Shown: piece after piece, positions 11,253 through 15,977 of the stretch
Layout of the letters: every line of letters starts with the position of its first letter
How positions within the stretch are numbered: the stretch's first letter is position 1
NCBI GenBank assembly: GCA_945901155.1
Contig: CAMDKO010000018.1
Coordinates: 1 to 35,337 of the forward strand
DNA from: Pedobacter schmidteae
GTDB taxonomy: Bacteria > Bacteroidota > Bacteroidia > Sphingobacteriales > Sphingobacteriaceae
DNA length: 35,337 nt
Direction: 5' to 3'
Notes under the pieces: model-generated
Told to the model about the DNA's origin: nothing
The model's database searches: none
The model's input: only the letters and a program-made list of their open reading frames with translations
Position numbers and translations under genes: made by a program

Positions 11253-12449
11253 TTATTTATTTTCAAGAACCTTGGTTACTAAGGCAGCAGCTTCTTTAAG
11301 AAGAATTGCAGAGTAAACCTTTAGTCCCGATTCGTCAATTAACTTTTTTGCTTCTACAGCATTAGTGCCCTGAAGACGTACAATAATTGGAACAGGAATA
11401 TTTCCAATCTCTTTGTATGCATCAATAACTCCCTGAGCAACACGATCGCAGCGTACAATTCCTCCAAAGATATTGATCAGAATAGCTTTTACATTTGGAT
11501 CAGAAAGGATAATATTAAATCCAGCTTTAACTGTTTCTGCATTTGCAGTTCCACCCACATCTAGGAAATTTGCAGGCTCACCACCAGCAAGTTTGATGAT
11601 ATCCATTGTAGCCATTGCAAGACCAGCTCCATTCACCATACAACCTACGTTTCCGTCAAGTTTAACATAGTTCAAATTTGATTTACTTGCTTCTACTTCT
11701 GTTGGATCTTCTTCTGATGTATCACGCATCGCAGCAAAATCAGGATGGCGGAAAAGTCCGTTATCATCCAGGTTTACTTTGGCATCAACCGCAAGAATTT
11801 TATTATCAGAAGTTTTTAAGACTGGGTTAATCTCAAACATAGATGAATCAGTAGCTTCATATGCTTTATACAAAGAAGCAATGAATTTGGTCATGTCTTT
11901 GAATGCATCACCACTCAATCCCAGATTAAAGGCTATTTTACGAGCCTGAAATCCCTGAAGACCAACCTTTGGATCTATTTCTTCTTTAAATATTAAATGA
12001 GGTGTGTGTTCTGCAACTTCTTCAATATCCATTCCACCTTCTGTAGAATACATGATGATGTTACGGCCTCTGGATCTGTCGAGTAAAACGCTTACATAAA
12101 ATTCTTTGGTATCACTTTCACCAGGATAGTAAACATCCTGTGCAACCAAAACTTTGCTAACCAACTTACCTTCTGGCCCGGTTTGTGGTGTAATTAATTG
12201 CATTCCTATGATATGCCCTGCTTTTTCTCTTACTTCTTCCAGATTTTTTGCTAGCTTAACACCACCACCTTTTCCACGTCCGCCTGCATGTATCTGAGCT
12301 TTGATAACTACCCAGTCTGAGTTATAATCTACTTTTAGTTTTTTGGCTGCTTCAACAGCTTGCTCAGCAGTATCGGCAACGATGCCTTCTTGAACTCTGA
12401 CGCCAAAACTTTTTAATATTGCTTTACCTTGATATTCGTGAATATTCAT
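11253..12449 (-). CDS. sucC: Succinate--CoA ligase (ADP-forming) subunit beta
   Basis: The beta subunit of succinyl-CoA synthetase, the TCA-cycle step that makes ATP/GTP from succinyl-CoA. The 398 residues match the family. The N-terminal ATP-grasp region starts [17 protein letters not shown] and has the glycine-rich [18 protein letters not shown]. The C-terminal CoA-ligase domain has [28 protein letters not shown] and [11 protein letters not shown], a phosphate-interacting loop. The usual partner sucD is not adjacent, so the subunits are encoded apart, as often seen in Bacteroidota. The start Met is the family start. It is divergent from the LolD-like gene with a 139-bp shared upstream region and ends at its own palindromic terminator. 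Confidence 0.97.
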
Positions 12450-12588
12450 TTACTTGTTATTTGTCGTAAAACTACGTTTTTATTGCAAACCTGAAAATAG
12501 CAAATGCAAAAAATAAGTCTTTTTTTTGTGCTCAGACCTTACTCTAATAAACAATTTGCACCTTTGCATATGAATACAGTCAAAATCG

Positions 12589-13245
12589 ATGCTTCAGGCA
12601 AGAGGAATTAAAAAATCATACGGAAATTTACAGATCCTAAAAGGGGTTGATCTTGATGTTACAAGAGGAGAGATTATTACGATAATTGGTGCTTCGGGTG
12701 CAGGAAAAAGTACTCTTTTACATATCATTGGAACTCTTGATCATCCTGACCATGGAATAGTCAGATTGAACAATGTGGATATTCATACACTCACATCAAA
12801 AAAATTGAGTGCATTCAGGAATGAGCAAATTGGATTCATTTTTCAATTTCATCACTTGCTTCCTGAATTTACTTCCTTAGAAAACATATGTATACCGGCC
12901 TTTATTGCTGGTAAAAGTAAAAAAGATGCTGAAAATAAGGCATTTGAATTATTGGAAATACTTGGTCTTTCAGATCGTGCCAATCACAAACCCAATGAAC
13001 TGTCGGGTGGTGAACAACAACGTGTGGCAGTAGCAAGGGCTATGGTGAATAATCCAGCAATAATATTAGCTGATGAACCATCCGGAAATTTAGATTCAAA
13101 TAACGCTGAAAATCTGCATCAGCTGTTTGTCAATTTACGTGATACTCTGAACCAAACCTTTGTGATTGTTACTCATAATGAAAATCTTGCTAATCTTGCA
13201 AATAAAAAGGTGTTAATGAAAGATGGACAAATAATTAATTATTAA
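12589..13245 (+). CDS. ABC transporter ATP-binding protein, LolD/MacB-like
   Basis: A 218-residue ABC ATPase. Visible motifs are Walker A GASGAGKS (34-41), the Q-loop [15 protein letters not shown], signature [15 protein letters not shown], Walker [14 protein letters not shown] and the H-loop [19 protein letters not shown] and the DEPSGNLDS block place it in the LolD/FtsE/MacB branch, which moves lipoproteins or works mechanically on the envelope rather than importing solutes. No LolC/E-type permease is adjacent; instead two unusual small genes follow, the first only 1 bp after the stop. TTTGCACCTTTGC at 12555-12567 resembles a degenerate Bacteroidota -7 box. The ATG at 12589 is the only in-frame start near the conserved N-terminus. 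Confidence 0.9.
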
Positions 13246-13246
13246 A

Positions 13247-13726
13247 ATGTCTGTTTTGATCACCGCTGCAACTAATTCAGCAGCTTTCCAACTTGCACGT
13301 ATTCTAAATACTGAGGATATATGTTTTGCCTCTGATACAGATATTCCTGTTTTTTCCGGAAAAAGATTTTTAAAGTTTCCCTCTACTGATTCTTCGAGTT
13401 TTATCCATGAAGTTTTAAAAATCTGTCTGGATAATCAAATAGTTGAAATTTATCCGTTATTACCTGACGAAATTGTTGAATTTTCAAAATCTCGACAACT
13501 TTTTGAAGAATTTGACATTAAACTTGTTATTCCTTCCATAAAATGGATAGAAACAAGATTAAATGATTCGCCATTTCTTTCTACAAATTTATTTGTCTTG
13601 ATCGATGGAAATTTATGTGCAGGGAATATTGCCAAAGAAAGTTTAATGCTTCTCAATGAAGAAAATGGCATTTTTCAATGGGAATTTAAAAATAATCAGC
13701 TAATATTTGGTTCTTTTAGTATTTGA
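13247..13726 (+). CDS. Stand-alone pre-ATP-grasp-like domain protein
   Basis: 159 residues resembling only the N-terminal (pre-ATP-grasp, Rossmann-like) part of short carbamoyl-phosphate-synthase-like ATP-grasp proteins. It opens SVLITAATNSAAFQLARIL and continues with a FPSTDSSSFIHEVLKICLD block and IYPLLPDEIVEFSKSRQLFEEFDIKLVIP, the typical run-up to an ATP-grasp domain. After ~residue 110, where the ATP-grasp lysine and glycine loop should follow, only about 50 residues remain and no nucleotide-binding motif is visible. The frame is intact and ends with TGA one base before the next ATG, so this looks like a maintained short protein, not a recent frameshift. A scaffold or ligand-sensing role is possible; no catalytic role can be supported. 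It starts 1 bp after the LolD-like stop. Confidence 0.6.
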   Translation: MSVLITAATNSAAFQLARILNTEDICFASDTDIPVFSGKRFLKFPSTDSSSFIHEVLKICLDNQIVEIYPLLPDEIVEFSKSRQLFEEFDIKLVIPSIKWIETRLNDSPFLSTNLFVLIDGNLCAGNIAKESLMLLNEENGIFQWEFKNNQLIFGSFSI

Positions 13727-13727
13727 T

Positions 13728-14342
13728 ATGCTTAAATATATTGATCTTGATCACAGAAAGAAGGCTTTTATTTTTGAATTGGATGATGTTCTTTACCCTG
13801 AAAGAGACTATCTACTGCAGGTCTATTATCTATTTTCCAATTTCATTGAATTTACAGAGACATTTCCTCCAGCATCAGATCTGATTGAATTTTTCAAAAA
13901 ATCATATGAACACCATGGTGATGATGGCATTTTTGATAGGGCGAAAGAAGTATTTGGAATCAATGAAAAATACAGAGATAATTTTGACCGGCTTTATTTT
14001 ACTGCCAGATTACCTTTGAAGCTATTGTTGTTTTCAAATGTGCTTATTCTGTTACAAGAAATAGTTATTGATAGAAAGAATATATTCATCATTACAAACG
14101 GTAAACCTGAAATTCAGATGAATAAAATCATGCAAACAGAGTGGAATGGTCTTGAAAAATATTTAAAGGTTTATTATGCTCAGGAGATAAATCAAAAACC
14201 AGAATCTGATGTATTATCGTATATATTAAAAGAGCACAATTTATTGAGAAAGGATCTTTTGATCTTGGGTAATGCTTTAACGGATGAAGAATTTGCTTTA
14301 TCAAGTGGAGTAGATTATTTAAATGTCAGTGAATTTATTTAA
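13728..14342 (+). CDS. HAD-superfamily-like protein with degenerate active site
   Basis: 204 residues from the ATG at 13728, which follows the previous stop by 1 bp; an earlier in-frame start would overlap that gene and adds an untypical N-terminus. The fold assignment rests on AFIFELDDVLYPERDYLL (motif I region), FIITNGKPEIQMNKI (motif II, T-N-G), QKPESDVLSYIL (motif III Lys region) and LILGNALTDEEFALSSGVDYL (motif IV region). Compared with the HAD consensus DxDxT, the nucleophile Asp is Glu17 and Thr is Val21; Asp19 is kept. Motif IV has GN in place of GD. Active HAD phosphatases require the nucleophilic Asp, so this protein is probably not a normal phosphatase. It ends the three-gene cassette; the S41 protease starts 60 bp later. 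Confidence 0.72.
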   Translation: MLKYIDLDHRKKAFIFELDDVLYPERDYLLQVYYLFSNFIEFTETFPPASDLIEFFKKSYEHHGDDGIFDRAKEVFGINEKYRDNFDRLYFTARLPLKLLLFSNVLILLQEIVIDRKNIFIITNGKPEIQMNKIMQTEWNGLEKYLKVYYAQEINQKPESDVLSYILKEHNLLRKDLLILGNALTDEEFALSSGVDYLNVSEFI

Positions 14343-14402
14343 ATTTATAGCTAATTTATTTTTTAATATTAAAAACTAACCTATCTCAACTTTAAGAAAT
14401 AT

Positions 14403-15977
14403 ATGTCAAATAAAATCATTTTGAGGTCATTAATAAAACCAATTATTTTCACATTCGGTGTTTTAATCCTTGCTTCTGCTTGTAAGAAAGAGCCTAAGGC
14501 TCCAACGACAACAACTGTAACTCCACCAGTGATCGTTGCACCCCCTACGAGAGCTGAATTAACTAAGGATTCAATTTTTCTTTATGCTAGAGACACTTAT
14601 TTCTGGAATGACGATATGCCTAGCTATGAAATATTTAAACCCAGATCATATTCTTCAGATCAGGCAGTTCTCGATGCAATAATTAAATTACCGGGAACTA
14701 ACAAACCTGTAGATAAATATTCATTTCTTGATAATGGTGGAGTATCAACCTCATTAGGTGGAGTAAGTGGTGATTTTGGCTTCTCCGTATTTTATAATGA
14801 TGATGATGGAAATTCAGCTACTCCAACTGAAGATCTTCGAGTTAAATATGTCTCACCAGGATCTCCTGCTGCTACTGCAGGGCTGATAAGAGGCTATCAG
14901 ATTACTACTTTAAACGGAAGAACTGGATCAGCCTTAAGTACATCTTCGTCAGCAAATGTATCATTTGTTTCTTCAGCTGTTTTTGGAAGTGCAACAACAG
15001 TTTCTATGACCGTCAAAAAACCTGATGGAAGCAGTCTAGTTTTAACTATTGCAAGAGCAACTTATGCCAACAATCCAATTTATGCCACTAAAATATTTAC
15101 CCTTGGTAGTAAAAAAGTTGGATATTTAGTTTATCATAGTTTTACTACCAATTCAAGAGATGGTCTGAGAGCGGCGATCGGAAAATTTCATACAGAAGGT
15201 GCTTCTGAATTAATTGTTGATCTGCGCTATAATGGTGGAGGTTCTGTGGCTACTTCTGATGTGTTTACCAATCTGTTAGCGCCTGCTTCCGTAAATGGTC
15301 AAGTAATGTATACAACCTATTGGACAAAAACTATGCAAGATGGGCTTGCAAAAATATTAGTCAATCAACCTTTATTAGATGCTAATGGTAAACTTCAAAC
15401 ATTTACTAACGGTGTAAATGGCAAATGGGCAACCTACGCAGATATTAATTATAAACCAACTGTGGCAGCAGGGAATATTGAAAATTTTGCTAAGGAAGGT
15501 GCTGCAGAATTTAAAAAGATTTATTTCTTAGTACTTAGTGGAACGGCTTCTGCCAGTGAATTAGTTATTAATAACCTCAAGGCTGTTTTGCCTAATGATG
15601 TAAAATTAATTGGTCGTCAAACCTATGGTAAACCAGTTGGTTTTTTTGCAATCAATATTGATAATTTAGATCTATATGTACCCCAGTTTGAAACTAGGAA
15701 TCAAAAGAATTATGGTGGATTTTACGAAGGATTAGCAGTTGATAAAACACTTGCTGATGATGTAACTAAAGATTTTGGTGATGAGAAAGAAGCGCTTTTA
15801 GCTGCTGCTTTAGCATATTCTGAAAAAGGATTTTTCTCAGTAAGCTCAAAGGGTAATACATTAAGCAGTATTTCTGGAATGCCTCTTTCTGAAGAAAAAG
15901 TGTTGAATCAAATCTTAGAAAAAAATAAATTCAATGGGATGATCGATGATAGGCCTAGAAAGTTGATTAAGCAATAA
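14403..15977 (+). CDS. S41-family (C-terminal processing-like) lipoprotein peptidase
   Basis: A 524-residue exported serine peptidase. A lipoprotein signal peptide ends at Cys27 (lobe LASAC) and is followed by a Thr/Pro-rich linker (PTTTTVTPPVIVAPPT). A PDZ-like domain spans about residues 120-215 (YVSPGSPAATAGLIRGYQI). The S41 domain follows: VGYLVYHSFTTNSRD, ELIVDLRYNGGGSVATSD and SGTASASELVINNL. Ser385 and Lys410 (in RQTYGKPVG) are 25 residues apart, as in the Ser/Lys dyad of the tail-specific proteases Prc and D1P. Such lipoprotein S41 proteins are frequent in Bacteroidota; the substrate is unknown. It lies 60 bp downstream of the HAD-like gene and is followed by a terminator, so it may end that operon. 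Confidence 0.9.
   Translation: MSNKIILRSLIKPIIFTFGVLILASACKKEPKAPTTTTVTPPVIVAPPTRAELTKDSIFLYARDTYFWNDDMPSYEIFKPRSYSSDQAVLDAIIKLPGTNKPVDKYSFLDNGGVSTSLGGVSGDFGFSVFYNDDDGNSATPTEDLRVKYVSPGSPAATAGLIRGYQITTLNGRTGSALSTSSSANVSFVSSAVFGSATTVSMTVKKPDGSSLVLTIARATYANNPIYATKIFTLGSKKVGYLVYHSFTTNSRDGLRAAIGKFHTEGASELIVDLRYNGGGSVATSDVFTNLLAPASVNGQVMYTTYWTKTMQDGLAKILVNQPLLDANGKLQTFTNGVNGKWATYADINYKPTVAAGNIENFAKEGAAEFKKIYFLVLSGTASASELVINNLKAVLPNDVKLIGRQTYGKPVGFFAINIDNLDLYVPQFETRNQKNYGGFYEGLAVDKTLADDVTKDFGDEKEALLAAALAYSEKGFFSVSSKGNTLSSISGMPLSEEKVLNQILEKNKFNGMIDDRPRKLIKQ

Follow-up and report, generated by a model that had tools for sequence, protein, structure and literature searches.

A HAD-fold protein without its nucleophilic aspartate, probably a non-hydrolytic survivor of a decayed operon in Sphingobacteriaceae

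Analysis of a 35,337-nucleotide stretch of DNA from Pedobacter schmidteae (contig CAMDKO010000018.1; the whole of this stretch is referred to as the window) identified a gene for a HAD-fold protein in which the Asp nucleophile is replaced by Glu. The protein is probably a non-hydrolytic pseudoenzyme which outlived the decay of its operon and was kept for a binding or scaffold role.

Sequence and predicted structure of the HAD protein

The frame begins with an ATG at position 13728 and encodes a product of 204 amino acids (see Table 1 for the coordinates of all features), which scored 34.7 bits against Pfam HAD_2, above the cut-off of 23.8. An AlphaFold2 model built with 80 relatives (mean pLDDT 95.6) shows a HAD core and a helical cap, the helices of which lie within residues ~25-92. 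Foldseek matched the model to C1-cap HAD phosphatases (best E 8.7e-8), and alignment with VIA-align 2 gave nearly tied rows (rmsd 3.1-4.7 over 181-190 residues for the named rows), among them 2go7_B (SP_2064; Z 16.0, rmsd 4.1 over 181), 3i76_B (YfnB; Z 15.8, rmsd 3.1 over 187) and 4knw_B (NANP/HDHD4; Z 15.3, rmsd 4.4 over 190). The window protein has the same fold, cap and motif order as the C1-cap phosphatases NANP/HDHD4 (N-acetylneuraminate-9-phosphate phosphatase; 4knw, 2w4m), YfnB (3i76, 3ed5) and SP_2064 (2go7), to which it is only 15-18% identical, but it differs from them in lacking the Asp nucleophile and in having Val for the motif I Thr and Asn for the first motif IV Asp.

An earlier note on this DNA had read motif I as FELDDVL, with Glu17, Val21 and a retained Asp19, and motif IV as GN, and both the coordinates and the residues were confirmed (E17, GAA at 13776-13778; D19, GAT at 13782-13784; V21, GTT at 13788-13790; G181-N182, GGT-AAT at 14268-14273). 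Among the features of the HAD superfamily, the fold and profile, the second Asp of motif I, the Thr/Ser of motif II and the Lys of motif III were present in the window protein, and the motif I nucleophile and the acidic pair GDxxxD of motif IV (which reads G-N-x-x-x-D) were absent. From established HAD chemistry, such a protein would not be expected to carry out phosphatase chemistry. No paper on this protein was found in literature searches judged by titles and the starts of abstracts.

Table 1. Positions of the HAD gene, its motifs and its neighbours in the window
Feature	Position	Strand	Basis or remark
sucC-like gene (presumed)	11253..12449	-	Locus anchor common to the window, L223 and L224
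ABC transporter ATPase (Pfam ABC_tran), presumably LolD-like	12589..13245	+	Upstream neighbour in 162/183 distinct loci
ATP-grasp gene stump, 159 aa: pre-ATP-grasp (PylC-like) N-terminal domain and short tail	13247..13726	+	Pfam, remnant lengths, fold match to 2pn1
HAD-fold pseudoenzyme gene (probable), C1-type helical cap	13728..14342	+	Frame, Pfam, AlphaFold2 model, fold matches
Motif I FELDDVL, residues 16-22	13773..13793	+	Nucleophile Asp to Glu17, Thr to Val21, Asp19 kept
Q31-V-Y33-Y34, first cap helix	13818..13829	+	Q31, Y33, Y34 at >=97% in 170 distinct non-Asp orthologues
Motif II Thr123, kept in the window protein	14094..14096	+	Thr in 144/183 distinct sequences
N132-K133 ... W139, near-invariant	14121..14144	+	Alignment of distinct orthologues
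Motif III Lys157-Pro158, kept in the window protein	14196..14201	+	Lys in 124/183 distinct sequences
Motif IV G181-N182-x3-D186	14268..14285	+	First Asp lost, second kept in the window protein
S41 peptidase, 524 aa	14403..15977	+	Downstream, same strand, in 156/183 distinct loci

Distribution of the gene and of residue 17

Of 400 genomes sampled from the order, 391 had a match to the HAD gene in a profile search. All 400 are listed in one family which, from its named members (Daejeonella, Pedobacter, Mucilaginibacter, Arcticibacter, Hufsiella and others), is Sphingobacteriaceae. A first search had returned matches in 54 of 100 relatives, all but one from the same family, and in a phylum-wide draw 12 of 395 genomes matched at 1e-12, 11 of these belonging to that family. 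Nearly all of the 391 matching genomes had a single match, and G023 and G132 had two each. There was no match at 1e-15 in nine of the 400 genomes (G013, G011, G024, G026, G038, G050, G404, G439 and G447); as these include G013, which belongs to the genus of the window genome, measures 2.3 Mb and is rated 100% complete, the gene is not indispensable. Both sampled members of genus g8 are among the nine. In genus g17 many orthologues had short open frames or stops inside the model span, suggesting a shortened C-terminus. An origin of the gene on plasmids was rejected, since a search of 72,556 plasmid records at 1e-5 found no match to the protein.

Residue 17 could be read in 390 genomes (G029, cut at a contig end, was excluded, as was its row L053 from counts of 182), giving approximately 345 with Glu, 37 with another non-Asp residue (21 Gly, 10 Thr and 6 Ala, Cys, Ser or Val) and 8 with Asp. 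The Glu calls for 311 of the approximately 345 come from a strict degenerate DNA pattern rather than from alignment, the places of the pattern having been compared with those of the orthologues by eye for a few rows, and the pattern read backwards, as a control, still matched 5 of the 400 genomes as compared with 311, so a few of the calls could be due to chance. The 76 orthologues fetched had Glu (34), Gly (20), Thr (10), Asp (6), Ala (2), Cys (2), Ser (1) or Val (1) at this position, and direct reading gave Gly in G001 and Asp in G041 and G051. When only distinct sequences of orthologues and relatives were counted, residue 17 could be read in 182 and was Glu in 133, another non-Asp residue in 37 and Asp in 12. 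A strain-specific mutation or sequencing error, which the earlier note had proposed to recognise by Asp in close homologues, was thus rejected, since most of the family is non-Asp. Glu, the fixation of which the note had proposed to check, is not fixed, and a special role for it was not supported, as the position can also be taken by Gly, Thr, Ala, Cys, Ser or Val; what is seen across the family is loss of the nucleophile.

Conserved and drifting residues

Sixteen positions (D19, Y28, Q31, Y33, Y34, L35, F36, G64, P96, L97, L99, G125, N132, K133, W139 and E153) were conserved at 97% or more in the 170 distinct non-Asp orthologues, and N132, K133, W139, Y33 and P96 were nearly invariant over 183 distinct sequences. 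Q31, Y34, L97, L99 and E153 are present in the Asp-type proteins L045, L046, L048 and L052 and absent from the more distant Asp-type HADs L054 and L146, one of which has P96 and W139. Given their presence in the four Asp-type relatives, Q31, Y34, L97, L99 and E153 were probably fixed ahead of the loss of the nucleophile, as P96 and W139 probably were too. The position of F36 is Ile or Val in the same four proteins, and F36 was fixed after that loss.

Conservation of the catalytic positions was uneven: Asp19 was found in 179, Asp186 in 119 and Asp182 in 6 of 183 distinct sequences. All six catalytic positions were intact in four of 182 distinct sequences (L045, L046, L048 and L054, with Glu accepted for Asp182), and in each of these a full-length ATP-grasp gene adjoins the HAD gene. 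For a statistical link between residue 17 and the loss of Thr123, Lys157 or Asp186, starred branches supplied no more than 4 independent pairs, a number too small for a test.

Six derived members have Asp17 (L156, L163, L164, L175, L181 and L214), none of them with a GD motif IV. Their Asp codon is GAT in every case, one base away from a Glu codon, and reversion would therefore be easy. Two of the six, L163 and L181, have Thr21 in addition to Asp17 and longer ATP-grasp remnants, and lie inside or near the Glu clade; because of the Thr21 and the longer remnants, retention of the ancestral Asp is possible in these two.

Phylogenetic analysis

In a tree of SucC (71 rows, with genomes from four further families as the root and few genera with Gly- or Thr-type HADs included), the Asp-type genera and genus g5 fell outside a main clade of 61 rows with SH-aLRT 99. 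In a tree of the HAD protein (132 rows, motif I columns removed), the four Asp types again fell outside a clade of 126 rows (SH-aLRT 100), but g5 was nested inside that clade, on a branch of its own that is long. For g5 the position in the SucC tree was considered the more reliable and, if it is right, Asp would have been lost at least once in g5 and at least once in the main clade, barring a reversion in G327. On the HAD tree, residue 17 must have switched between Asp and not-Asp at least 7 times and have changed its state at least 19 times.

The locus and its counterpart in early-branching relatives

The HAD start codon is separated by one base from the stop codon of the ATP-grasp stump, and it was this truncated gene, together with the intact operon of relatives, that was absent from the earlier note. 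Against PylC-like_N the stump reached 18.2 bits, short of the cut-off of 27. Its model is confident (pLDDT 92.3), and in fold it comes closest to the ATP-grasp protein 2pn1 (E 1.9e-6, 105 columns), followed by generic Rossmann-fold dehydrogenases. The HAD gene is the constant element of the locus. A strict link to one neighbour was considered and dropped, as neither lolD nor the S41 gene is constant: S41 is retained in 13 loci where lolD is missing upstream, and in 19 Glu-type loci lolD is present but S41 gave no match in the flanking stretch searched (only 1.5 kb for many of them). The distance from HAD to the start of the S41 tblastn match had a median of 68 bases and exceeded 1,500 bases in three loci. 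The S41 peptidase of the window has, by eye, a lipoprotein-like N-terminus. A scan of 12400-14500 returned 7 promoter-like sites against 11.4 expected and 2 terminator-like sites against 0.8 expected, and the count of TANNTTTG was 53 against 51.6 expected; nothing said here about operons draws on these counts.

An operon of PIG-L, ATP-grasp and HAD genes was found in three relatives. In L224 the order is sucC, lolD, a gene of ~490 amino acids on the other strand, PIG-L, ATP-grasp (352 amino acids) and HAD; L223 has the same set with lolD inverted and an 844-amino-acid frame between sucC and lolD; and L225 has lolD, the ~490-amino-acid gene, PIG-L, ATP-grasp and HAD, with no sucC in the stretch examined. 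Pfam identified PIG-L and ATPgrasp_Ter (PF15632) in L223 and L225 and HAD_2 in L223, and the PIG-L of L224, found with tblastn, is 79% identical to that of L223. The ~490-amino-acid gene beside lolD and PIG-L (L223:5079-6551, L224:2991-4475, L225:10427-11902) probably encodes a membrane protein, judged by eye; a Pfam match was not found for the L223 copy.

The HADs of these operons are 41-44% identical to the window HAD and have the same Q-V-Y-Y cap signature, and their lolD-like genes are 60-62% identical to that of the window; as at the locus of the window HAD, the operon lies near sucC and lolD in L223 and L224, and near lolD in L225. The shared sucC, lolD and HAD neighbourhood and the HAD tree thus show common descent of the HAD gene and a locus shared with the PIG-L/ATPgrasp_Ter/HAD operon. 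The relatives' HADs, in contrast to that of the window, read FDFDNT, FDLDNT or LDLDNT in motif I and adjoin ATP-grasp genes of 348-352 amino acids, and the window has neither PIG-L nor a full ATP-grasp gene beside HAD, the only listed frames from lolD to S41 being the ABC ATPase, the 159-amino-acid stump, HAD and S41 itself. Seven PIG-L matches were found elsewhere in the window genome, and so the class is still present and only its place beside HAD is gone. The sole PF15632 match in that genome is a frame of 940 amino acids, CarB-like by size, and there is no stand-alone ATPgrasp_Ter gene.

Decay of the neighbours was seen across the family. PIG-L was found in 5 of 183 distinct HAD loci in the stretches examined, all five of them Asp-type. 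In 182 distinct loci (L053 left out) the ATP-grasp remnant exceeded 320 amino acids in 6, measured 220-320 in 12, 130-219 in 94 and less than 130 in 55, and was not found in 15, these lengths being approximate as unusual start codons were allowed (162 was scored for the 159 amino acids of the window). The six longest remnants all adjoin Asp-type HADs, and the sizes form a series of ~350, 290, ~230-260, ~160 and ~100 amino acids down to none found. The step of 289-290 amino acids is the ATP-grasp derivative of genus g5 (L230:6802-7671, L231:7756-8628), a possible second pseudoenzyme beside HAD; neither the L231 copy nor its HAD had a Pfam match at 1e-3. Residues 17 and 21 of the three g5 HADs read were Asp and Thr (L181), Glu and Thr (L049), and Glu and Val (L051).

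Selection and alternative explanations

Values of dN/dS (NG86) were low whichever residue had replaced the nucleophile, with a median of 0.072 for Glu-Glu pairs (range 0.028-0.265, n=52) and 0.070 for Gly-Gly pairs (range 0.034-0.101, n=16), and 0.084 for one Thr-Thr pair; 97 pairs had 80-99.5% identity and 69 lay inside the dS limits of 0.05-2, the pairs sharing sequences and so not being independent. Comparison of the window with L057 and L058 gave 0.11-0.12 for HAD, 0.09-0.11 for LolD, 0.13-0.18 for S41 and 0.25-0.26 for the ATP-grasp stump. Constraint on HAD is therefore comparable to that on its ordinary neighbours, and the stump is less constrained; given its confident predicted fold and a dN/dS of about 0.25, which is moderate constraint, the stump may itself keep a residual role. 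The low dN/dS rejects a fresh pseudogene, which the earlier note had likewise thought unlikely. The HAD protein thus combines loss of an essential catalytic residue with purifying selection, as is characteristic of a pseudoenzyme.

The strongest alternative, although an unlikely one, is that the protein is a phospho-ligand sensor, its pocket still binding the phosphorylated metabolite of the ancestor but leaving it uncleaved, and the protein passing a signal to a partner. The Glu types mostly keep the residues that this would need, with Thr/Ser123 in 129, Lys/Arg157 in 120 and Asp19 in 130 of 133, and because the motif II and III positions are so often kept in them, ligand binding or slow unusual chemistry would still be compatible with these sequences. 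In the 37 Gly, Thr, Ala, Cys, Ser and Val types, however, Thr/Ser123 was found in only 5 and Lys/Arg157 in only 11 (a raw contrast, uncorrected for kinship), yet dN/dS is as low between Gly types as between Glu types, and the locus no longer has the ATP-grasp and PIG-L partners of the ancestor. The binding of a phosphorylated ligand put forward in the earlier note accordingly agrees with the Glu types and less well with those that also lost the phosphate-binding residues, and the lineages that have also lost phosphate-binding residues would point to binding rather than to ligand sensing, again with the contrast uncorrected for kinship.

It is very unlikely that the protein is still an enzyme, one whose reaction has changed and in which Glu17 serves as the nucleophile or binds a metal. 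That Glu is the commonest residue at position 17 and that other pocket residues are often kept would agree with this, but more than a fifth of the distinct sequences (37/182) have another non-Asp residue in its place, the changes of state at this position number at least 19 on the HAD tree, and in the HAD enzyme PfISN1 the D170N mutant at the equivalent position was inactive on IMP (PMC7320144). Least probable is a slowly decaying relic without present function, which the decaying operon, the drifting catalytic residues, the stops inside the model span in several genomes and the nine genomes without a match might suggest, but which the dN/dS near 0.07, the nearly invariant residues and the presence of the gene in 391 of 400 genomes argue against.

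Discussion

The non-catalytic reading accounts for these observations as follows. The ancestor would have encoded a phosphatase with canonical motifs, and its gene would have shared an operon next to lolD with genes for a PIG-L deacetylase and an ATP-grasp protein; this operon still exists in the early-branching genera. In the main lineage the PIG-L gene and the adjoining ~490-amino-acid gene disappeared from the locus, and of the ATP-grasp gene only a stump was left. HAD lost its Asp nucleophile and the first Asp of motif IV, and the phospho-aspartyl intermediate should be out of reach. The fold and the fixed residues (D19, Y28, Q31, Y33, Y34, G64, P96, W139, E153 and more) stayed under purifying selection. 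The present protein would accordingly be inactive and serve as a scaffold, its role most likely being the binding of a protein partner, or at most of a ligand, perhaps through the cap side. As the fixation of several of the conserved residues seems to predate the loss of the nucleophile, a second role of this kind may go back to the ancestor.

Loss of the catalytic Asp with retention of the HAD fold, as in the window protein, has precedents in the HAD pseudoenzyme Tim50, in the inactive phosphatase domains of plant trehalose-phosphate synthases and in the phosphatase-like domain of sucrose-phosphate synthase. Unlike these, the protein described here is bacterial, mostly single-copy and family-wide, and comes out of a decayed operon.

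Pseudoenzymes are usually thought to arise from spare copies after gene duplication. Tentatively, a different course may be proposed for this core gene of the Sphingobacteriaceae, in which a phosphatase turned non-catalytic without duplication: the enzymatic role would have disappeared when the pathway was dismantled, perhaps in several lineages separately, and a second, non-catalytic role of the ancestor (perhaps of the cap) would alone have been kept, with several stages to be seen in or near one locus of living genomes. Annotating the gene throughout the family as a 'HAD family hydrolase' would be misleading. Because a canonical relative, intermediates and dead forms coexist in or near one locus of living relatives, the order in which the partner enzyme, the nucleophile and the phosphate-binding residues were lost is open to direct study.
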